DNA from: Syntrophobacteraceae bacterium
Lineage (GTDB): Bacteria; Desulfobacterota; Syntrophobacteria; Syntrophobacterales; Syntrophobacteraceae
NCBI GenBank assembly: GCA_031292195.1
Contig: JARLHP010000139.1
Coordinates: 1-32,538 of the forward strand
Length of the DNA: 32,538 nt
Reading direction: 5' to 3'
The notes below the pieces were generated by a model, which made no database searches, was not told where the DNA came from, and saw nothing but the letters and a program-made list of their open reading frames with translations. The translations under genes and the position numbers were made by a program. Below are positions 14,729-24,359 of this stretch, one piece after another; position 1 is the first letter of the stretch, and each line of letters opens with the position of its first letter.

Positions 14729-17700
14729 ATGCAGTTGCAGAAAAATGAACGAAGGGCCTTGTGCGGCATTTGCCCGGCAGGTTGTTGGGTGATCGTCACT
14801 TGCGGCGCCGACGGGAAAATGAGTTCGGTCAGGGCCGACGAAGGCTCCCCCCTGGGCATAGTCTGCAAGCTCGGCCAGCATTCCGCCGAGATCGTCTATT
14901 CCGAAAACCGGCTTCAATATCCCTTGCGGAGGAAGGGGCCGAAGGGAACCTATGATTTTGAGAGGATAAGCTGGGAGGAAGCCTTTCAGACGATTGCAGG
15001 CAAACTCACTACCATCAAGGACCGGCACGGCCCGGAAGCGACGGCCATCTACACGGGCCGGGGAAGCTTCGAGCTGGCCCTGTGCGACGTGTTCCAGCCA
15101 AAGGACGTGGCGGTCTCGTCGGCTTCGAGCGTCCTTTTTCCCCTCGGGTCCCCGAATACCATGGGCGTGGGGGCCCTCTGCTATGTCTCCTTCGCCATGA
15201 TCGCTCCCCATGTGACGATGGGCGGGATGCTCATCAACATGTTTTCGGAGATTGAGAACTCGGAGCTGATAGTGGTCTGGGGGGCCAATCCGGCGACGGA
15301 CAGCCCTCCGCTGGAGCTCAACAGGATCCTGGAGGCGGTGGGGCGAGGGGCGAAGGTGGTGGTGATCGATCCGAGACGCACCCAGACGGCAAGGCTGACC
15401 GAGGCGGAATGGGTGCCCATCCGGCCGGGAACCGACGGCGCCCTGGCCCTGGGCCTGAGCCAGGTTTTAATCGAGGAAGAGCTGTATGACGAGCCTTTCG
15501 TGAAGCAATGGACACTGGGATTTCCGGAGTTTGCCCGATATGTGCAGCACTTCAGGCCGGAGGTGGTGGAATCGATCACCGGAGTTCCCCGGGAGACGGT
15601 GCGCAGCCTGGCTCGAAGGATAGCCGGGGCGCGCGGGGCTTCCCCGGTCATGTATTCGGGCCTGGAGTACAGCGACAGCGGGGTCCAGGCCATCCGGGCC
15701 ACCCTGGTGCTGTGGGCCCTGGCGGGACAGCTCGATATGCCCGGGGGGCGATGTTTTACGATGAAGCAGAATATATTCCCGATCAACCGGGAAGGGCATA
15801 TCCCCAATCCGAACCCCAAAAAAGCCCTGGGAGTCGAACGATTCCCCGTATACAGCGCCTACCGGGGAGAATCGCACGCCAGTTGTCTGCCGGACTCCGT
15901 TTTGCAGGGGAAACCGTACCGGATTCGGTCGCTGATGATCCTGGGGGCGTCGATGATCACGGCCTGGCCCCGGCCTGAAGTCTGGCGAAAGACCCTGGGG
16001 GCTCTCGACTTCCTGGTCTGTATCGATGTGAATCTCACGGCCGACTGCGCCTATGCCGATATTGTCCTGCCCGCGGCGACTTCCTACGAAATCGACTCCT
16101 ACATGACCTATGGCCCGCTCTTCCGGCTCCGGGAGAAGGTGATCGAACCTGTCGGCGAAGCACGCAATTCGTTTTTCATCCTGACCGAACTGGCGGAGCG
16201 GCTGGGATACGGCCATCTTTACCCGCGGACCGAAGAGGAGCTTTTACGGCACGTGCTGAAGGGGTCCCCCTTCACCCTGGAAGAGGTTCGCGCGGCCGGG
16301 GGCCAGGTCCAACTCGACACCGTCATGATGGAATACCGGAAATGGGAAAAGGGGTTGCTGCGGGCTGATGGGCAGCCGGGATTCGAGACCCCGACAGGAA
16401 AGTTCGAAATTTCCTCGACTATACTTGAAGAACACGGCTACGACCCTCTGCCCGTTTATACCGAACCTGCGGAAAGCCCCTTGAGCCGGCCAGAGCTTGC
16501 CGGAGAGTTCCCGCTGGTCTTCAATTCCGGTTCGCGGGTGACCACAGACTTCCGGAGCCAGTTCCACGGGGTCGTGGGGCTGGCAAAAGAACGGCCGGAG
16601 CCAACCGTTACGATCAACACCCGGGATGCCTCGGCCAGAAACATTGGTCAGGGAGACAGGGTGATTCTTCGGAGCCCCCGGGGTTCGGTCCGACTGCGGG
16701 CGCTTGTGAGCGACGACATCGTACAGGGCGCGGTCGATGCCAACATGGGAGGTGGAGGTCCCCTTGGTCCGAGAGCGTGGCAGGAATGCAACATCAACGA
16801 TCTCACGGACTTGAAATTCGACCCGATCTCCGGGTTTCCGATCTACAAGGCGCTGCTGTGCGAAGTCGAAAGGGCCAAGGAGCCGGGGCAAGCCATCGAA
16901 ATTGATTCCGGGGAGTCGGGTGTCGTTACCTTTAAAGCAACGCAGGCCGGGGTGGAAGCCTTGGAGAGCATCTACCTCGATCATAACGCCACCACCCATC
17001 CGGACCCGGAAGTGCGGGCCCTCATGGACGACTACCTGGAGAGCCGTTATGGGAACCCTTCGGCCATTTACCGGGAAGGCAGGGAGGCGAAGGCGGCGAT
17101 CGAGGAAGCCCGCAAGAAAGTGGCCAGACTGCTGGGATGCACGGCCCGCAGGATCGTTTTCACCGGAGGGGGCAGCGAGGCCAACAACCAGGTGATCAAG
17201 AGCCTGGCCCTGGCCGACTGGAACGGCAAAAAGAGGTTGATCACCTCGTCTATCGAGCACCCTTCCATCCTGAAGGTCTGCGACTGGCTGGAAAAATACG
17301 GGTTCAACGTGACCTGCCTGCAGGTGGATTCCTACGGGCGGGTCAGTCCCGAAGACCTCGAAAAGGCGATAACCGAGGATACCTTCCTGGTGAGTATCAT
17401 GGCCGCGAATAACGAGACGGGGTCACTTCAGCCCATCGCGGAACTTGCCGGGATCGCTCAGCGCCGGGGGGTGCTTTTCCATACCGACGCCGTCCAGGCC
17501 GCCGGAAAGGTCCCTCTCGATGTGGAAACGCTGGGCGTCGATTTTTTAACTCTTTCCGGCCACAAGTTTCACGGGCCCAAGGGTGTGGGCGCCCTGTATA
17601 TCCGGAAAGGGATCGAACTGGAGCCCCTGCTTCATGGCGGCGGGCAGGAAGGGGGGCTGCGGGCCGGAACGGAGAACACGGCGGGCATCGCCGGAGTGGG

Positions 17701-18124
17701 GAAAGCGGCGGAGCTGGCCGAGGAGCGTATCCCCGACATGAACCAGCGGGTTCGCCTCCTGAGGGACCGGCTGTGGGAAGGCATTCGGCGTCTAATTCCG
17801 GAGGCAAAGCTAAACGGACACCCGGAATACAGGCTCCCCAACACTCTTAACGTCTCCCTGCCGGGGATCCGGGGAGAGGCGATGGTGCTGGCCCTGGACC
17901 GGAAATCCGTTTTCCTCTCCTCGGGGTCCGCCTGCCGGGCGGGTTCTCCCAAACCTTCCCATGCCCTCTTGAACATGGGCTTATCGGAGGAAGAGGCTCA
18001 CTGCGCCCTGCGTATCTCCCTTGGCGCAGGCACCACGGAAACGCAGATCGACCAGACGCTCGCGCGGATGGAGGAAGTGATCCGCGAGTCGATGACAACC
18101 GTTCGTTTCGTGCCCTGCAGATAG
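14729..18124 (+). CDS. Molybdopterin oxidoreductase-cysteine desulfurase fusion (ergothioneine synthase type)
   Basis: This 1131-residue fusion has two complete enzymes. Residues 1-730 are a DMSO-reductase-family molybdopterin enzyme: a [4Fe-4S] site at C12, C15, C19 and C46, a likely metal ligand C151 in GALCYVSF, cofactor-binding VVWGANPAT (182-190) and DPRRTQT, and the molydopterin dinucleotide domain from about 590. Residues 748-1131 are a class V, NifS/IscS-type cysteine desulfurase: YLDHNATT (749), H844, PLP lysine K946 in SGHKFHGPKG and persulfide cysteine C1069 in SSGSACRAG. A published family of this exact build, the metallopterin-dependent ergothioneine synthase first described from Caldithrix abyssi, transfers sulfur to hercynine. 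The egtD gene directly downstream supports that role here. The ATG at 14729 has AAAAGG 9 nt upstream. The desulfurase domain is fused, so persulfide can pass inside one protein. No twin-arginine signal is seen; it should be cytoplasmic. Confidence 0.88.
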   Translation: MQLQKNERRALCGICPAGCWVIVTCGADGKMSSVRADEGSPLGIVCKLGQHSAEIVYSENRLQYPLRRKGPKGTYDFERISWEEAFQTIAGKLTTIKDRHGPEATAIYTGRGSFELALCDVFQPKDVAVSSASSVLFPLGSPNTMGVGALCYVSFAMIAPHVTMGGMLINMFSEIENSELIVVWGANPATDSPPLELNRILEAVGRGAKVVVIDPRRTQTARLTEAEWVPIRPGTDGALALGLSQVLIEEELYDEPFVKQWTLGFPEFARYVQHFRPEVVESITGVPRETVRSLARRIAGARGASPVMYSGLEYSDSGVQAIRATLVLWALAGQLDMPGGRCFTMKQNIFPINREGHIPNPNPKKALGVERFPVYSAYRGESHASCLPDSVLQGKPYRIRSLMILGASMITAWPRPEVWRKTLGALDFLVCIDVNLTADCAYADIVLPAATSYEIDSYMTYGPLFRLREKVIEPVGEARNSFFILTELAERLGYGHLYPRTEEELLRHVLKGSPFTLEEVRAAGGQVQLDTVMMEYRKWEKGLLRADGQPGFETPTGKFEISSTILEEHGYDPLPVYTEPAESPLSRPELAGEFPLVFNSGSRVTTDFRSQFHGVVGLAKERPEPTVTINTRDASARNIGQGDRVILRSPRGSVRLRALVSDDIVQGAVDANMGGGGPLGPRAWQECNINDLTDLKFDPISGFPIYKALLCEVERAKEPGQAIEIDSGESGVVTFKATQAGVEALESIYLDHNATTHPDPEVRALMDDYLESRYGNPSAIYREGREAKAAIEEARKKVARLLGCTARRIVFTGGGSEANNQVIKSLALADWNGKKRLITSSIEHPSILKVCDWLEKYGFNVTCLQVDSYGRVSPEDLEKAITEDTFLVSIMAANNETGSLQPIAELAGIAQRRGVLFHTDAVQAAGKVPLDVETLGVDFLTLSGHKFHGPKGVGALYIRKGIELEPLLHGGGQEGGLRAGTENTAGIAGVGKAAELAEERIPDMNQRVRLLRDRLWEGIRRLIPEAKLNGHPEYRLPNTLNVSLPGIRGEAMVLALDRKSVFLSSGSACRAGSPKPSHALLNMGLSEEEAHCALRISLGAGTTETQIDQTLARMEEVIRESMTTVRFVPCR

Positions 18125-18152
18125 GTCGGGCCGCCCTTGTTGCGAAAGGAAA

Positions 18153-19256
18153 ATGAAAGGACACCCTATGAATGGACCCGTTTCGAACCGGTGTGAAATC
18201 GGACCCGCGAGTATGGGTAAGAGTTCCGTCCGGAAGGCAAACCTGCAGATAGTGAATTACCTGAACGGAGATCACCGGGAGAAGATGCGCGAGGATATCC
18301 GGGAGGGAATGACCAAAAGACAGAAGCGCATTCCGGCCAAGTACTTCTACGACGCTCGCGGTTCCCGGCTTTTCGATCGGATTTGCATGACTCCCGAGTA
18401 CTATCCCACCAGGACCGAGTTGTCGATCCTGGAGAGTTCGGCCGCCGAGATCGTGCAATTTTTCCTGGAGGAAGGCGGAGACCTGATAGAGCTGGGCAGC
18501 GGCTCCAATCAGAAGATCCGAAAACTGCTCGACGGGATGCTTCATCCCCGGCTGGGGCCCGTCCGGTATGTTCCGGTCGAAATCAGCCGGAGCTGCCTGC
18601 TCGAATCCGCCCGGGAACTTCTAGACGACTATGAAAATCTCACCATCCTGGGGCTTTTGGCCGATTTCACGCAGCATCTGGGGGTTTTGCCCCGCGGCAA
18701 AAAGCTTCTCGCTTTTTTCGGCAGCACCATCGGCAATTTTACGGACGGGGAGGCGCTCAATTTTTTGAGAAGCGTCCGGGCGATCATGAATGGCGACGAC
18801 CGCTTTCTGCTCGGGCTGGATATGCTCAAACCCATCGAGATCATCGAGGCGGCCTACAACGACAGGCAAGGCATCACCTGCGATTTCAACCGGAACATCC
18901 TGGTGCACATCGACCGGGAGTTGGGGGCGGACTTCGACCCGGAAGATTTCGAACACCTGGCGTTCTTCAACACGGAAAACGAATGCGTGGAGATGCACCT
19001 TCGGGCCAGGCGCAACATCAAGGCCCGCATCGAAGAGTTGGGGCTGTGTGTGGAAATGAACAAAGGGGAAACCATTCACACCGAGATCAGTACGAAGTTC
19101 AGCCGCCAGAGGGCCCAAAGCCTTTTCCAGCGGGCCGGGTTGTCGGTCTCCAGGTGGATTACAGATCCAAGGGGCTGGTTTTCCCTGGTTGAACTGGAAG
19201 CCGGGGACATCCAACGAAACGAGCAACAGAGGGCGCCCGGAAGGAGGTGCAGGTGA
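18153..19256 (+). CDS. egtD: L-histidine N-alpha-methyltransferase (hercynine synthase)
   Basis: EgtD uses three S-adenosylmethionine to trimethylate the amino group of histidine, giving hercynine. The 367-residue product shows the family motifs in order: FYDARGSRLFDRICMTPEYY (about residues 65-84), the SAM site ELGSGSNQK (113-121), YVPVEISRSCL, FFGSTIGNF (188-196) and GLDMLKP (221-227). The length fits. Two starts are possible: the ATG at 18153 (AAAGGA 4 nt before) and the ATG at 18168 (GAAAGGA 6 nt before), which may be the better one. It follows the fusion enzyme by 28 nt and its stop overlaps the next start by 4 nt, so all are in one operon. No EgtB (oxygen-using sulfoxide synthase) or EgtC gene is present nearby, consistent with the oxygen-independent route. 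Confidence 0.95.
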   Translation: MKGHPMNGPVSNRCEIGPASMGKSSVRKANLQIVNYLNGDHREKMREDIREGMTKRQKRIPAKYFYDARGSRLFDRICMTPEYYPTRTELSILESSAAEIVQFFLEEGGDLIELGSGSNQKIRKLLDGMLHPRLGPVRYVPVEISRSCLLESARELLDDYENLTILGLLADFTQHLGVLPRGKKLLAFFGSTIGNFTDGEALNFLRSVRAIMNGDDRFLLGLDMLKPIEIIEAAYNDRQGITCDFNRNILVHIDRELGADFDPEDFEHLAFFNTENECVEMHLRARRNIKARIEELGLCVEMNKGETIHTEISTKFSRQRAQSLFQRAGLSVSRWITDPRGWFSLVELEAGDIQRNEQQRAPGRRCR

Positions 19257-20623
19257 AATACGATGCCATCATCATTGGCTCGGGGCAAGCCGGGAATCCG
19301 CTGTCCCGTGAACTGGCCGACCTCGGTTGGACCGTGGCCCTGCTCGAAAGAGCCCACCTCGGCGGCACCTGCATCAACACGGGGTGTACGCCCACGAAAA
19401 CCATGGTCCACAGAGCGCAGGTGGCTCACTATGCACGCCACGCCGCACGATGGGGCGTGCGCTCCGGACAGATCGACGTAGACCTGGAAAGCATCGTCCG
19501 GCAAAAGGATCACATCGTCCAGAGCTTTCGTGACGGCCTGCAAAGACAAGTCGACAGGCGTCCCAACCTGCGTCTATATCGCGGACAGGCCCGATTCGTG
19601 AGCCCGCACCGGCTTGAAGTGGGAGAGCATCTGCTGGAGAGCGAAAAAATCTTCATCGACACCGGCGCCCGTCCCCTCATTCCAACCATTCCGGGCCTGG
19701 ACAGGGTCGACTACCTGACCAACGAAAGCATTATGGGATTAACCCGGCTCCCGGCCCACCTGGTTGTTCTTGGAGGCGGTTACGTGGGGTTGGAGTTTGG
19801 CCAGATGTTCCGCCGCTTCGGCAGCCGGGTTACGGTAATCCACAACAGTGAGCAGATCCTGCCGAGGGAAGACCCGGAGGTGGCGGCCGAGCTTCAGAAA
19901 GCTCTTGCGACGGAGGGAGTGGACTTTCTGCTGGGCGCCCGGACAACGGCCATAGAAAAGAAGGAGGGCTCGATCATACTGACCGTCGAAGGAAATCAAG
20001 GCCTGTCCACTGTTACCGGGTCGAACATCCTGGTCGCCACGGGCCGGTTGCCCAACAGCGACGATCTGGGTGTAGACAAGGCGGGAATTGAAATCGATAA
20101 AAAGGGCTTCATCAAGGTCAATGGCCGCCTGGAGACGAATGTGCCCGGCATCTGGGCACTGGGGGACGTAAAGGGCGGGCCTGCCTTCACCCACATCTCC
20201 TATAACGATTTCCAGATCGTTTACGGCAACCTGGTCAAAGGCCGGGGGCTTTCGGTGGACAATCGGATTGTTCCTTATTGCGTGTTCACCGATCCCCAGC
20301 TTGGCTGCACAGGCATGACGGAAAAAGAAGCAAGAGCTAAAGGCTACCAGCTCAAGATCGGCAAAATTCCGATGACCGGCGTGGCTCGAGCTCTCGAACG
20401 CGACGAGACCGCCGGGCTTATGAAGATTGTGGTGGATGCGACGAACGATCATATCCTGGGCGCCTCCCTTCTATGCCCGGAAGCGGGTGAACTGGTCCAG
20501 ATACTGGTTGCGCTCATGCTCGCCAACCAGCCTTACACACTCCTTAAGGAGGCGATCTACATTCACCCGACGCTGGCCGAAGGATTTTTCTCCCTCATGG
20601 AAGATGTGAAGCCGGTGAAGTGA
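19253..20623 (+). CDS. FAD-dependent pyridine nucleotide-disulfide oxidoreductase
   Basis: The 456-residue product is a mercuric-reductase/lipoamide-dehydrogenase-like flavoprotein. It has FAD site GSGQAG (residues 9-14), redox disulfide C40-x4-C45 (TCINTGC), NAD(P) site VVLGGGYVGLEFG, FAD-binding GIWALGDV and the C-terminal catalytic pair H438/E443 (HPTLAE). It lacks both the N-terminal metal-binding domain and the C-terminal Cys pair of true mercuric reductases, so mercury reduction is unlikely. The operon suggests reduction of an ergothioneine-related disulfide, or electron transfer to the fusion enzyme; neither is shown. The GTG at 19253 has a perfect AAGGAGG 5 nt upstream and overlaps the egtD stop (GTGA), which points to translational coupling. 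The frame also opens at a GTG at 19247, inside the ribosome binding site. Confidence 0.9.
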   Translation: MKYDAIIIGSGQAGNPLSRELADLGWTVALLERAHLGGTCINTGCTPTKTMVHRAQVAHYARHAARWGVRSGQIDVDLESIVRQKDHIVQSFRDGLQRQVDRRPNLRLYRGQARFVSPHRLEVGEHLLESEKIFIDTGARPLIPTIPGLDRVDYLTNESIMGLTRLPAHLVVLGGGYVGLEFGQMFRRFGSRVTVIHNSEQILPREDPEVAAELQKALATEGVDFLLGARTTAIEKKEGSIILTVEGNQGLSTVTGSNILVATGRLPNSDDLGVDKAGIEIDKKGFIKVNGRLETNVPGIWALGDVKGGPAFTHISYNDFQIVYGNLVKGRGLSVDNRIVPYCVFTDPQLGCTGMTEKEARAKGYQLKIGKIPMTGVARALERDETAGLMKIVVDATNDHILGASLLCPEAGELVQILVALMLANQPYTLLKEAIYIHPTLAEGFFSLMEDVKPVK

Positions 20624-20649
20624 AAGCAGTGGACGAAAGGAAAAGGACG

Positions 20650-21045
20650 ATGGAAGATCAAAATATCCGGAGCGCGATTGAGCGCCACTGGGCCGCGTCC
20701 GCAGCCGCGGACCTGGAAGAGGAACACAATATTTATGACGACGACGCCCTGCTCGACTACCCTCAATCGGGCGAGCACATCCGTGGACGTCGCAATATCC
20801 AGGGGCTTCGCGCCCATCATCCTGACAAACCTTCCGGTTTTGGCGTGATTCGGATTCTGGGACGGGGCGATCTTTGGGTCTCCGAGTTCACCATCACGTA
20901 CCGGGACCGCTCGTTTTTCACCGTAAGCATCATGGAATTTAGAAACGGCAAGGTGGTTCATGAGACGCAGTACTTCGGCGAACCCTTTCAGGCCCCGCAA
21001 TGGCGGGCCGAGTGGGTGGAACGGGTGGGACCGCACTCGGAATGA
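20650..21045 (+). CDS. NTF2/SnoaL-like protein
   Basis: This 131-residue protein matches the SnoaL-like/NTF2 fold: a first helix with AIERHWAASAAADLEEEHNI, then DDDALLDYPQSGEHIRGRRN, GRGDLWVSEFTITYRD and a final FRNGKVVHETQYFGEPF before WRAEWV. This fold holds ketosteroid isomerases, dehydratases and many non-enzymatic binding proteins, so a reaction cannot be named. It starts 27 nt after the flavoprotein gene and probably ends the operon. The ATG at 20650 follows AAAGGAAAAGGACG; an upstream GTG at 20620 would overlap the preceding gene by 4 nt. Confidence 0.75.
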   Translation: MEDQNIRSAIERHWAASAAADLEEEHNIYDDDALLDYPQSGEHIRGRRNIQGLRAHHPDKPSGFGVIRILGRGDLWVSEFTITYRDRSFFTVSIMEFRNGKVVHETQYFGEPFQAPQWRAEWVERVGPHSE

Positions 21046-21089: not shown

Positions 21090-22604
21090 TCACCTTGTCG
21101 CCTTGAGCCTCAGGCCCTTGGGGATTAGGAGAAACTCCGCCAGGCCGAACAGGGCCTGCACCAGGAGGGCCAGAAACGCGGCGGGCACCGCGCCCTGGAG
21201 GATCAGTCCCAGGTCGTCCAGGCGGATTCCGGTAAGAATGGGCTGTCCGTAGCCGCCCGCTCCGATCAGTGCGCCCAAGGTGGCCGTTCCCACGTTGATC
21301 ACGGCCGAGGTCTTAATCCCGTTCAAAATAATTCCGGAGGCCATGGGGAGTTCGACCAGCATGAGTCTTGCTCCCGGTGGCAGACCAAGGGCTTCGGCCG
21401 ATTCCCGAATATCCCGTGGAACTTCATGAAGTCCCGCGTAGGTGTTTCTAACAATCGGAAGGAGGCTGTAGAGAAACAGCGCGGCAATGGCCGGCAGACC
21501 GCCGATTCCCAGAAGCGGGATCATAAAGACCAGAAGGGCCATGGCGGGAATGGTCTGGATGATGCCGACCACGGCCAAAATCACCTGTCCCGGGTACCGC
21601 CATTTTTCGGCTATGATGCCCAGGGGTAAAGACACCAGGATGGCGGCGCACAGGGAAATCGAAACCAGGTAGAGATGCTCTTTTGTATACTTCCAAACCC
21701 GTTGGGCCACGGTCTCCACGCGCACGCGGGATTCAATGGAGAGACGTTTGGCCAGAAAACGGGCCGCGATGCCGATTTCCGGCGCTTTTTTGAACTTGGC
21801 AAGTTCGTTTAGCTCGATCATTTCGGGTGCGGAAATTTTGCCATCGAGACTTTCCAGTGCGGCAATAAACCGGGGCGCACGCTTTTCCAGCTCCCTTCGA
21901 TAGAGAAAGACCGCCTTGTAGGCAGGAAAATAATGGAGGTCATCTTCGAGGGTACACAGGTCGTAATAGGCAATCTCGGCATCCGTGGTATAAACATCCG
22001 TGGCGTCGATAGAACCGGACGCGAGTCCCCGATAGGCGAGGTCGTGTTCCATGCCGAACACATTTTTCTGCGGGAGGTCGTAGCGGTCGCGCAGTCCGGG
22101 CCAGCCGTCCTCCCGGTTCATGAATTCGCTGCTGAACCCGAAAATCAACCCGGGATGGCCGCGCAGGTCCGAGATTCGAAAGAGTCCGAGTTTTTTGCAG
22201 GTTTGCCTCTTCATCCCCAGGGCATAGTTATCCGTAAAACCCAGGGAGGGAGTCATTCGGATGCCCAATCGGCCCAGGGCCGCCCGTATGGCTTTTTCGC
22301 CGTGGATTCCTTTACCGGCAAAGATCTCCTGGCTTATCGTGCCGGTATATTCCGGATAGAGGTCGATATCGCCCTTCAACAGCGCATCCCAGAGTACGCG
22401 CGTGCCTCCCAGCCCCTTGCGGTCGACGACCCTGGCCCCCGCACTCCGGGCGATCAGCGCGGCCATCTCTGCCAGCAGTACCGATTCGATAAACGTTTTG
22501 GAACCTATTACGACCTCGGGGGATGAGCCCAATGCCGGCGGCGGCGCTCCCATCTCCACGGCGAGAAGGGATAGAAGCGCTAGTAGAGGAAGGGCGTATT
22601 TCAC
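21090..22604 (-). CDS. Betaine/EgtU-type ABC transporter, binding protein fused to permease
   Basis: This 504-residue protein joins a substrate-binding domain and a permease. A signal-peptide-like segment (MKYALPLLALLSLLAVE) leads into an OpuAC-type binding domain (VVIGSKTFIESVLLAEM; DIDLYPEYTGT; TDAEIAYYDL). From about residue 310 there are five to six membrane segments with the inner-membrane permease EAA loop (SAEALGLPPGARLMLVELPM). The family imports glycine betaine, carnitine, choline or, in the EgtUV branch, ergothioneine. In EgtU the permease comes first; here the binding domain is first. The neighbouring cluster makes the betaine hercynine, so uptake of ergothioneine or hercynine is plausible but unproven. 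Its ATPase gene lies just upstream, with 6 nt between them. It converges with the cluster across 44 nt. Confidence 0.85.
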   Translation of the reverse strand: MKYALPLLALLSLLAVEMGAPPPALGSSPEVVIGSKTFIESVLLAEMAALIARSAGARVVDRKGLGGTRVLWDALLKGDIDLYPEYTGTISQEIFAGKGIHGEKAIRAALGRLGIRMTPSLGFTDNYALGMKRQTCKKLGLFRISDLRGHPGLIFGFSSEFMNREDGWPGLRDRYDLPQKNVFGMEHDLAYRGLASGSIDATDVYTTDAEIAYYDLCTLEDDLHYFPAYKAVFLYRRELEKRAPRFIAALESLDGKISAPEMIELNELAKFKKAPEIGIAARFLAKRLSIESRVRVETVAQRVWKYTKEHLYLVSISLCAAILVSLPLGIIAEKWRYPGQVILAVVGIIQTIPAMALLVFMIPLLGIGGLPAIAALFLYSLLPIVRNTYAGLHEVPRDIRESAEALGLPPGARLMLVELPMASGIILNGIKTSAVINVGTATLGALIGAGGYGQPILTGIRLDDLGLILQGAVPAAFLALLVQALFGLAEFLLIPKGLRLKATR

Positions 22605-22610
22605 CGTGTT

Positions 22611-23357
22611 TTATCCCATCACGTCAAAGAGGAGAGTGCGACGAGCGTTTATAAAGTGCGAGACAAAAGGTTCCGCCGGGCTTTGCAGAAGTTCCTTGAG
22701 AGTACCTGTTTGTATGATCCGCCCCTTGTGGAGAAGGACGATCAACTCCCCGAAGAAGGCCGCCTCCCCCATGTCATGGGTGACCAAGATAACGGTTTTG
22801 TTCAGTGTTTGAAAGATTCGCTTCAAGTCCTCCTGCAGTTCCGCACGGATCATCGGGTCGAGCGCCCCGAGCGGCTCATCGAGCAGGAGCACATGGGGGT
22901 CCAGCATCAGGGCGCGCATCAGCCCGACCCGCTGTCGCTGCCCGCCCGAGAGTTGCGCGGGAAAGCGGTCGAGTCCATCGAGAGGAAATCGTGTAATGTC
23001 CGCCAACTCATGGAGCCTCTTATCCACCTTCGCGCCCTCCCATTTATGATAGCGAGCCATGAGCGTCACATTACCGCGAACGCTAAGATGCGGGAAAAGC
23101 CCTCCTTCCTGAATCACGTATCCCATTTTTTTTCGGAGCGAAAGAGCGGTGTGAGGCAGTACTTCGGTACCGTAAAAATAGACGTGGCCTCTTTCCGGAC
23201 GAACAAGGCCGATAATGAGCCGCAGAAGGGTAGACTTTCCGCTGCCGCTCGGGCCGATCAGCACGGTCGTTTGACCTGGTTCGATCTTCAGATTGAAGGA
23301 CTGAACGGCTTCGACCGTGGAAGAGTAAGTCTTGGAGACGCCTCTTAACTCAATCAT
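22611..23357 (-). CDS. Betaine-type ABC transporter ATP-binding protein
   Basis: The 248-residue product has all ABC ATPase motifs: Walker A GPSGSGKST, Q-loop VIQEGGLFPHLSV, signature LSGGQRQR, Walker B VLLLDEPLGALDP and the switch histidine in ILVTHD. The closest resemblance is to the OpuCA/ProV group, but the protein ends soon after the core and lacks the C-terminal CBS domains that many of those have, as in EgtV-like short forms. It drives the fused binding protein-permease encoded just downstream. The ATG at 23357 fits the usual family start (MIELRGVSKTY). The open frame also reaches a TTG at 23396 without a clear ribosome binding site, so the start is uncertain. Confidence 0.9.
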   Translation of the reverse strand: MIELRGVSKTYSSTVEAVQSFNLKIEPGQTTVLIGPSGSGKSTLLRLIIGLVRPERGHVYFYGTEVLPHTALSLRKKMGYVIQEGGLFPHLSVRGNVTLMARYHKWEGAKVDKRLHELADITRFPLDGLDRFPAQLSGGQRQRVGLMRALMLDPHVLLLDEPLGALDPMIRAELQEDLKRIFQTLNKTVILVTHDMGEAAFFGELIVLLHKGRIIQTGTLKELLQSPAEPFVSHFINARRTLLFDVMG

Positions 23358-23402
23358 GGATGGCCTGTTTTCCTGAACCCCTTTTATTCGTGACAAGTCC
23401 GG

Positions 23403-24359
23403 TCAAGGACCGGAGCGCTCCAGTCCATTCCGGTCCCAGAGCGCCAGCTTTGCCGCCGCTTCATAGGTGCTTTGGAGAAAGGCCAGGAGCACTTCGTCCG
23501 GATTCTTGGCGGTACGCACCACATCATAGGGGAGCAGGAATTCCCGTAGCTGTTCGTCATAGTAAGCTTCACCGGGTTTCACACGACAGGTGCGGAAGGC
23601 CTCCGGCTCCGGGTAGGCATAGGAATAAAAGGCCGGCATTCCCAGGCCGGCTCCCGGCCAGAACCCGCAACTGCTGACTTCATGCGAGTAGGCCTCGACC
23701 ATAACGGAATGGCCGACATTGGGAACTCCGGGATGCTCCGGGGCCTTTCGCCCGGAGAATCGGGTTACGGCTATATCAAAAGCTCCCCAGAAGAGGTGCA
23801 CCGGACTCGCTTTCCCGATAAATCGGGAACGAAAATCCTTAAAAACTCTGTCCACCTGCACGAGGGCGCGCCACCACCTGTTGGCATACTCCGGATCATA
23901 AGAAGCGTGCGTGTGGTCCTGCTCGAAAGGGATTCTCTCCTCCACTTCCACCGGCTTTGTCCAGATGACCAGCCCAATACCCAGAGATCGGAGAGCACCA
24001 AGGGTTTCGGTGTAAAAATCAGCTACCGGGCGGGGCTTTAAATCGATGGAGCGCTTTTGTCCGTCATTAGTCTCAAGGTGCATACGGTGATCTACAAAAT
24101 CAAAGTTCATCTCGAATGTGCGCATTTGGTAAGGGATTGGCGAAGTGGTAAGACCGCGAGATGTGACATAGAAGGGCACCTGCCACCAGTGATTGGTCAT
24201 GGGGGAGAGCTTGAGCCGGATTTTACCCACTACCTGCATCCACAGGTGGAGGGTGGTGCAGGTATCTTGCCATTCCTCGATCGGAAGAGGCGGCCACGGC
24301 GGCGTGCCGCCGCTGCCGGGCCCACCATGCCCGGGCCGCGGGCTTTTCGTGGTTTCCAA
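23403..24359 (-). CDS. DUF5996 family protein
   Basis: The 318-residue product matches DUF5996: LPIEEWQDTCTTLHLWMQVV, GKIRLKLSPMTNHWWQVPFY, then VTSRGLTTSPIPY and FEMNFDFVDHRMHL, with AFDIAVTRFSGRKAP and HEVSSCGFWPGAG later. The function of this family is unknown; the sequence shows no membrane segment. The only ATG before the conserved start (PPWPPLPIEEW) is at 24359, inside a dispersed repeat (24294-24361), so the first ~22 residues (METTKSPRPGHGGPGSGG) are repeat-derived. Its start thus differs from the normal family start, unless a non-ATG start closer to the domain is used. It precedes the ABC transporter gene on the same strand. Confidence 0.85.
   Translation of the reverse strand: METTKSPRPGHGGPGSGGTPPWPPLPIEEWQDTCTTLHLWMQVVGKIRLKLSPMTNHWWQVPFYVTSRGLTTSPIPYQMRTFEMNFDFVDHRMHLETNDGQKRSIDLKPRPVADFYTETLGALRSLGIGLVIWTKPVEVEERIPFEQDHTHASYDPEYANRWWRALVQVDRVFKDFRSRFIGKASPVHLFWGAFDIAVTRFSGRKAPEHPGVPNVGHSVMVEAYSHEVSSCGFWPGAGLGMPAFYSYAYPEPEAFRTCRVKPGEAYYDEQLREFLLPYDVVRTAKNPDEVLLAFLQSTYEAAAKLALWDRNGLERSGP

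Follow-up and report, generated by a model that had tools for sequence, protein, structure and literature searches.

Two routes to ergothioneine that differ in the formation of the C–S bond are compared here. In the EgtB–EgtD route, the bond is formed by a non-haem iron enzyme with O2. The other route depends on metallopterin-dependent ergothioneine synthase (MES), and the Caldithrix enzyme, CaMES, is the described example against which we compare our locus. In the portion of the CaMES report used here, a [4Fe-4S] site is inferred from Cys14/17/21/48, production is abolished by mutating Cys153, Lys952, Cys1074, or Cys1135, and Cys1097 has little effect (PMC9516567). The Mo chemistry of CaMES is a proposal of its authors (PMC9516567). 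Here, we describe an operon at positions 14,729 to 21,045 of a 32,538-nucleotide stretch of DNA, hereafter the window, from a Syntrophobacteraceae bacterium (JARLHP010000139.1, assembly GCA_031292195.1; genome 94.9% complete). From its sequence, we assign the locus with high confidence as MES, an enzyme already known, and thereby add a further genus to those with an operon for oxygen-independent ergothioneine synthesis. The operon would very probably make ergothioneine from histidine and cysteine without oxygen, by means of EgtD and MES.

The Operon and Its Fusion Enzyme

The operon has four genes, as follows.

14729..18124, + strand: mes, 1131 amino acids, metallopterin-dependent ergothioneine synthase; Pfam Molybdopterin, Molydop_binding, and Aminotran_5
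18153..19256, + strand: egtD, 367 amino acids, histidine N-alpha-trimethyltransferase; Methyltransf_33, 356.5 bits
19247..20623, + strand: class I flavoprotein disulfide reductase, 458 amino acids; Pyr_redox_2 and dimerisation domain
20620..21045, + strand: SnoaL_2/NTF2-like small protein, 141 amino acids; PF12680, 32.8 bits

A re-check of the open reading frames (ORFs) bore out the coordinates and strand of all four genes as first predicted from this DNA (the initial annotation). Since the genes are tightly spaced on the + strand, with a 28 bp gap followed by overlaps of 10 bp and 4 bp, an operon is likely. An alternative start for the NTF2-like gene, the ATG at 20650, is the one found in its relative in a congener and would leave a 26 bp gap to the flavoprotein gene.

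The fusion consists of a Mo/W-bis(molybdopterin guanine dinucleotide) domain, residues 1 to about 718, and a cysteine desulfurase, residues about 746 to 1120. The sites of MES are all present in it: the [4Fe-4S] cysteines C12, C15, C19, and C46, the metal ligand C151, the pyridoxal phosphate lysine K946, the persulfide cysteine C1069, and the tail cysteine C1130. We aligned 81 MES sequences, namely that of the window and those of 80 loci from named genomes. The first seven of these residues, which the initial annotation had already listed, are unchanged in 81/81. That list was presented as complete and had overlooked the C-terminal relay cysteine. C1130, the last but one of the 1131 residues, is conserved as Cys wherever the alignment has a letter at that position (79 rows; the other two of the 81 have none); C1092 is Cys in 79/81. 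The roles of these residues are inferred from CaMES by residue identity and phylogeny. The likeness to CaMES extends over the order of the domains, the cysteines of the FeS site, the Cys that binds the metal, the PLP Lys, and the persulfide and penultimate cysteines, and, in the genome, over the presence of egtD and absence of EgtB (PMC9516567). The differences are that the window's operon has two further genes, that one congener combines MES with EgtB, and that the host is a member of the Syntrophobacteraceae rather than Caldithrix.

Among solved structures, the best Mo/W enzyme for the N-terminal part is acetylene hydratase (2e7z, 232.5 bits), and the desulfurase part matches cysteine desulfurases at 329 bits; none of the best 60 of 156 matches is a full-length relative of the fusion. 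The desulfurase half scores 319.7 bits with NF002806, above the cut-off of 304, and 481.6 bits with TIGR03402, under the equivalog cut-off of 530.75.

The neighbouring gene had been called a full egtD, and its product indeed passes the equivalog cut-off of TIGR03438 (352.9 versus 290.9 bits) and matches solved EgtD at 242.6 bits. It is the only EgtD match in the window's genome. EgtB, which had been reported missing from the window, falls short throughout the genome, where the best TIGR03440 match reaches 54.3 bits against a cut-off of 360. EgtD and the product are common to this route and the EgtB–EgtD route, whereas the C–S bond would here be made by a Mo/W enzyme. The pairing of egtD with the fusion extends well beyond the window. 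It adjoins MES in 14/14 other MES loci of a scan of the phylum, and it lies within 2 kb of MES in 55 of the 80 named loci (42/57 when at least 1.3 kb is available on both sides). The named loci are the best 80 of 245 MES relatives, many with short flanks. Genome-wide counts of EgtB, EgtD, and importers were made for 50 of them, picked by hand and mostly on longer contigs; EgtD is present in 46 of these 50 genomes, in 43 above the cut-off.

Phylogeny and Distribution of MES

Two trees were built, the first with 32 of the 81 MES rows and the second with 20, omitting the stand-alone protein L101 and distant paralogues. The window's Mo domain groups with that of a congener, G007, inside a supported clade of fused MES from many phyla, which includes a protein labelled Caldithrix abyssi HyVt-577 (L127). 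Support for the MES clade, with its nearest stand-alone relatives included, is 99/96 and 100/100. The placement is with fused MES and not with thiosulfate or formate enzymes, and the MES identity proposed in the initial annotation is supported by residues, domain order, and clade alike. Our assignment rests on the residues, the clade, the missed cut-offs of other families (see below), the EgtD, and the lack of an EgtB above its cut-off.

The phylum was sampled with 395 genomes, and at E 1e-150 a match was obtained in 27 of them. In fifteen the desulfurase half is present (the window's protein, 13 further complete ones, and a split one), and 12 have the Mo half only. By their titles, the hosts of the named loci include Scalindua, Kuenenia, Jettenia, and Brocadiaceae (anammox), Gemmatimonadota, and Zixiibacteriota, as well as methanogens, Chromatiaceae, Electronema, Actinomycetes, and Nitrospira. 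A search for MES on plasmids and a scan of viral contigs led nowhere. The window thus extends a known enzyme, with its set of sulfur-relay residues complete and a small lineage-bound extension, to a new host whose group mostly avoids oxygen.

Two Predicted Sulfur-Insertion Routes in One Genome

Congener G007, which we take to be the named locus L112 (Syntrophobacteraceae bacterium MAG_BA129), has a MES–flavoprotein–NTF2 cluster without egtD (L112, 9001–14252). Its contig C4 (L083, 4307–6970) encodes EgtB, at 490 bits against the cut-off of 360, plus EgtD. The two contigs are similar in base composition, with a tetranucleotide correlation of 0.94. EgtB–EgtD is also present in congeners G004, G008, and G009, which have no full-length MES, and in congener G005, alongside a MES Mo domain that is 85% identical to the window's and ends at 720 residues (L033, 374–2536). 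No trace of a desulfurase was found behind that domain on its contig.

EgtB above the cut-off is found in six of the 50 named MES genomes: L112, L154 (Chromatiaceae), L158 (Gammaproteobacteria), L159, L179 (Myxococcales), and L184. The L159 genome is that of a purple sulfur bacterium in culture, Thiorhodococcus mannitoliphagus DSM 18266 (loci L159 and L258). An egtD within 2 kb of MES occurs in 0/6 of the EgtB-bearing genomes versus 33/44 of those without EgtB (Fisher p 0.0008). The contigs of two of the six end less than 1 kb from MES; with sufficient flanks only, the counts are 0/4 versus 30/37 (p 0.003). The sole EgtD found adjoins EgtB in 5/6, and in the L179 genome EgtD and EgtB are on separate contigs. 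Since the only EgtD is beside EgtB in five of the six, one EgtD probably serves both sulfur-inserting chemistries in these genomes. To judge from the relatives' gene content, the route that uses oxygen and the one that does not can each take the other's place, or both can be present in one genome.

The co-residence of MES and EgtB (6/50, one of them a cultured strain) is unexpected from the statement, in the part of the CaMES report used here, that MES is encoded only in anaerobes (PMC9516567). That work took its cases from genomes that encode the methyltransferase and in which neither EgtB nor EanB was discernible (PMC9516567), so genomes holding both MES and EgtB could have escaped its search. 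No literature titles were found on genomes with both MES and EgtB, and no papers on ergothioneine with anammox or with Chromatiaceae. The reason for keeping both chemistries becomes a directly testable question.

Stand-Alone MES-like Enzymes and a Candidate Ovothiol Route

Six of the Desulfobacterota genomes that have the Mo half only encode a stand-alone MES-like protein of 735–741 residues next to a methyltransferase, as follows.

L089, 6686–9861: MES-like enzyme and methyltransferase
L090, 4049–7225: MES-like enzyme and methyltransferase
L091, 6591–9772: MES-like enzyme and methyltransferase
L092, 7023–10198: MES-like enzyme and methyltransferase
L093, 2490–5673: MES-like enzyme and methyltransferase
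L094, 5723–8908: MES-like enzyme and methyltransferase

The six MES-like proteins group with fused MES (100/100), apart from eight other stand-alone proteins. They lie either inside or beside the fused clade, as a single clade of all fused proteins excluding these ovothiol-linked ones is neither shown nor rejected (approximately unbiased test, p-AU 0.103). All six end in an L-G-C-V-G tail, which is absent from the eight other stand-alone proteins and from the G005 protein. The Cys of this tail recalls, by analogy, the essential C-terminal Cys of MES.

In 6/6 loci, the methyltransferase, of 313–318 residues, lies directly upstream, 9–26 bp away, and among NCBIfam models it is matched best by that of the OvoA C-terminal methyltransferase (89–113 bits versus a cut-off of 170). 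For the one of the six examined against solved structures, that of L089, the first three places are taken by OvsM, OvoA, and OvoM (E 6e-20 to 2e-16), and the match that follows is at 2e-6. The L089-type methyltransferase differs from OvoM, OvsM, and the C-terminal part of OvoA in falling under the TIGR04345 cut-off and in having an extra N-terminal Trm112-like segment; it also differs from the OvoA-type route in that its partner is a Mo-type enzyme, not a sulfoxide synthase.

The simplest reading is a candidate one, drawn from gene pairing: the Mo-type enzyme, loaded by an outside persulfide source, would sulfurate histidine, and N-methylation of the imidazole would follow. Since the MES-like enzyme is paired in 6/6 loci with a methyltransferase of the OvoM/OvoA type, which acts on 5-thiohistidine, the product may be an ovothiol-type thiol (or selenol) made without oxygen. 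The pair is thus a candidate for an ovothiol-type route that is independent of O2. In the portions used here of PMC10903977 and PMC12631010, ovothiol is made only by way of the OvoA sulfoxide synthase, and a broad search of the literature found only that route.

It is tempting to propose, as a tentative view that we hold to be rather less probable than its converse, that MES is one branch of a wider Mo/W family that sulfurates histidine-derived imidazoles. A Desulfobacterota branch would make an ovothiol-type thiol or selenol without O2, and elsewhere, the window's genus included, MES and EgtB would be interchangeable or coexist around one EgtD, spanning the oxic–anoxic boundary. The pairing makes an anaerobic ovothiol route testable, and this side finding may matter more than the operon that led to it. 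The wider survey weighs more than the single locus. Both the coexistence of oxic and anoxic routes and the anaerobic ovothiol route are now testable questions.

The Flavoprotein and NTF2-like Genes

The product of the flavoprotein gene retains a C42/C47 pair and His440 (in an HPT motif), which we take to be the redox pair and the active-site histidine of its disulfide reductase family. Its nearest named family is NF004992 (557.2 bits, under the cut-off of 629), and it passes no family cut-off among the best 25 of 55 matches. Membership of MerA (TIGR02053, 375.7 versus 454.45) and of RclA (NF040477, 393.1 versus 740) is rejected on the same grounds. The NTF2-like protein has a solved relative, 3en8 (192.5 bits).

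In G007, both genes directly follow MES (flavoprotein 82% and NTF2-like 71% identical to the window's), and the genomic location of the pair behind MES differs between the two genomes. Of 59 relatives, only the window's genome and G007 have matches to the NTF2-like gene; it has none at the other 79 named MES loci, many with short flanks. The flavoprotein has a match in 6/80 named loci, and all but that of L112 are weak (29–38% identity). A general MES module is thus rejected for the pair, with no NTF2-like match in any of 14 other MES stretches of the phylum and both close relatives at 1/80 loci. The suggestion of an extended operon in the initial annotation holds in so far as the pair follows MES in G007; it does not hold at the other 79 loci, and the G007 cluster itself is without egtD. 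Likewise, among the 80 named loci, the co-occurrence of the pair with MES extends to G007 and no further, with no NTF2-like match and at best a weak flavoprotein elsewhere. Since the close pair is confined to a congener, it looks like a genus-level addition. There is a parallel in the pneumococcal egtU operon, which also holds a SnoaL2-family gene according to the part of that report used here (PMC9732360).

A Convergent Importer of Predicted Betaine Type

The initial annotation had also overlooked the surroundings of the operon. A second, convergent operon for an ATP-binding cassette (ABC) importer (21090–24359, - strand) lies 44 bp downstream of the four genes, as follows.

21090..22604, - strand: fused substrate-binding domain and permease of an ABC importer, predicted to be of quaternary ammonium type; OpuAC, BPD_transp_1
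22611..23396, - strand: ATPase of that importer; ABC_tran
23403..24359, - strand: DUF5996 protein, first gene of the importer operon; PF19459, 465 bits

In the fused protein, the binding domain (30–286) precedes the permease (326–486) in one chain. Its best solved match is EgtUC, at 131 bits. The likeness to EgtU of Firmicutes includes the betaine cage Tyr residues, a Lys, Thr, Glu, and Arg, and the fusion of binding domain and permease (PMC9732360). The differences are that the binding domain is first rather than last and that N339 is replaced by Asp (PMC9732360). In the part of that report used here, G244/F293/Y337 form the EgtU signature, and the window has F38, Y86, and F123 at these positions, the F, Y, F of AfProX (PMC9732360). 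Since both the pocket residues and the domain order depart from EgtU, membership of a strict EgtU family fails.

An importer of this kind lies within 6.5 kb of MES in 8/80 named loci. Six have the binding domain first: four in Scalindua/Brocadiaceae records, of which two belong to a single genome, one in Gemmatimonadota, and one in an unclassified record. The remaining two, from Zixiibacteriota, have the permease first and stand in the same place. An importer also adjoins MES in one genome (L303) of the Thiorhodococcus order, which we take to be the Chromatiales. The ATPase is 57–67% identical among binding-domain-first importers beside MES. At E 1e-50, the importer is found in 14/50 named MES genomes, including a broken copy in that of L112, and at E 1e-70 in 2/395 genomes of the phylum sample. 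Among the 59 relatives, there are five matches at E 1e-40: the window, G007, G055, and two with separate permease genes. The close form (above 70% identity) is confined to the two genomes with fused MES. The G007 gene (L205, 3576–4907, contig C82) is 73% identical, has stops inside, and keeps its DUF5996 and MFS neighbours; no ATPase match was found on that contig. In G109, a Desulfobacterota genome with no MES match (L272, 6721–12247), a 45% identical importer relative adjoins an EgtB/SenA-like gene, which scores 335 bits, under both cut-offs, with a true egtD nearby. An importer family near several ergothioneine clusters offers a new handle on anaerobic ergothioneine physiology.

Proposed Route and Alternatives

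We propose that EgtD would convert histidine to trimethylhistidine, and that the desulfurase half of MES would transfer the sulfur of cysteine to C1069. From there, the sulfur would reach C1130 at the C-terminus and then the Mo/W centre, whose ligand is C151 and which would insert it at C2 of the trimethylhistidine imidazole. The flavoprotein would most likely keep the thiol reduced by acting on the disulfide of ergothioneine or a related thiol, a guess from its fold, active-site cysteines, and operon position; the phrase "ergothioneine disulfide" was not found in the literature searched. The likeliest substrate of the importer would be a betaine, whether a histidine betaine (ergothioneine or trimethylhistidine) or a different one, and we give a role in histidine-betaine uptake about an even chance.

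One alternative is that the fusion is another enzyme of the dimethyl sulfoxide (DMSO) reductase family, acting on thiosulfate, polysulfide, or formate, joined to a desulfurase and next to egtD by accident. The Mo half does match the models of formate dehydrogenase and PhsA, but far under their curated cut-offs, and among the best 25 of 54 matches it reaches no cut-off of the thiosulfate, formate, DMSO, or nitrate families. With these misses and the tree, a thiosulfate, polysulfide, or formate identity is rejected; moreover, every residue essential in CaMES is kept, and EgtD stands beside MES in most loci across many phyla. We therefore regard this alternative as very improbable. A different possibility, compatible with ergothioneine synthesis by this operon, is that MES works mainly on imported trimethylhistidine, or by sulfur exchange with imported ergothioneine, the importer being the main supply. 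In CaMES, sulfur exchange is reversible, and in E. coli, supplied trimethylhistidine gave more ergothioneine than co-expressed EgtD, as stated in the part of the report used here (PMC9516567). The importer adjoins MES in several phyla, and the G007 cluster has no egtD. However, G007 has EgtD elsewhere, its importer gene is broken and lacks an ATPase partner on its contig, and most MES genomes have EgtD, so that a main supply by import appears unlikely.

Several observations weigh against synthesis by EgtD and MES with the roles proposed for the added genes. No EgtD match was found in 4/50 named MES genomes. At E 1e-70, no other MES genome in the phylum sample has the importer, and its pocket is alike in linked and most unlinked members. 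These last points bear on whether the importer merely neighbours the operon as an ordinary glycine-betaine osmoprotectant system, a reading to which we give a little less than an even chance. It is favoured by the AfProX-like pocket (PMC9732360) and by the family being common in the Thiorhodococcus order, where it occurs in 37/210 genomes, mostly far from ergothioneine genes: among the stretches around 20 of 38 importer matches, MES was found in 1/20 and EgtB or EgtD in 0/20. Nor does the 15 kb stretch examined in G055, which has a distant fused importer (38–47% identity), hold an ergothioneine gene. Against a mere neighbour stand the positions beside MES in Brocadiales, one Gemmatimonadota, an unclassified bacterium, and one genome of the Thiorhodococcus order, the permease-first importers in the same place in two Zixiibacteriota loci, the G109 cluster, and, among the 59 relatives, the restriction of the close form to the two genomes with fused MES. 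It is nearly as probable as not that the flavoprotein and the NTF2-like protein serve as a pair in the general detoxification of electrophiles or oxidants and that their genes were inserted into the operon, a reading compatible with the proposed route. Enzymes of the RclA, MerA, and hypothiocyanous-acid-reductase types are among the relatives of the flavoprotein, and on plasmids some NTF2-like relatives have reductase, cupin, or efflux genes nearby. The close pair stands behind MES in one genus only. No annotated ergothioneine gene was found near NTF2-like relatives on seven plasmids (incomplete gene table), nor in the neighbourhood of one flavoprotein relative; as the plasmid relatives lie amid varied genes, the NTF2-like protein may be unrelated to ergothioneine. 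On the other side, both congeners retain the pair directly behind MES at different genome places.

DUF5996 and Other Neighbours of the Importer Family

The DUF5996 gene is possibly a further gene linked to ergothioneine; no papers on DUF5996 were found. A 62% identical relative (L085, 9000–10010) overlaps the end of the egtD ORF in congener G008. Ten representatives of the importer's neighbours were scanned, and the eight that are neither a Mo enzyme nor EgtB-like gave general families or none. In three stretches of the Thiorhodococcus order (L312, 6243–8342; L313, 11572–13725; L314, 5991–8240), the importer stands back to back with a different Mo enzyme, 33–35% identical to the Mo half of MES.

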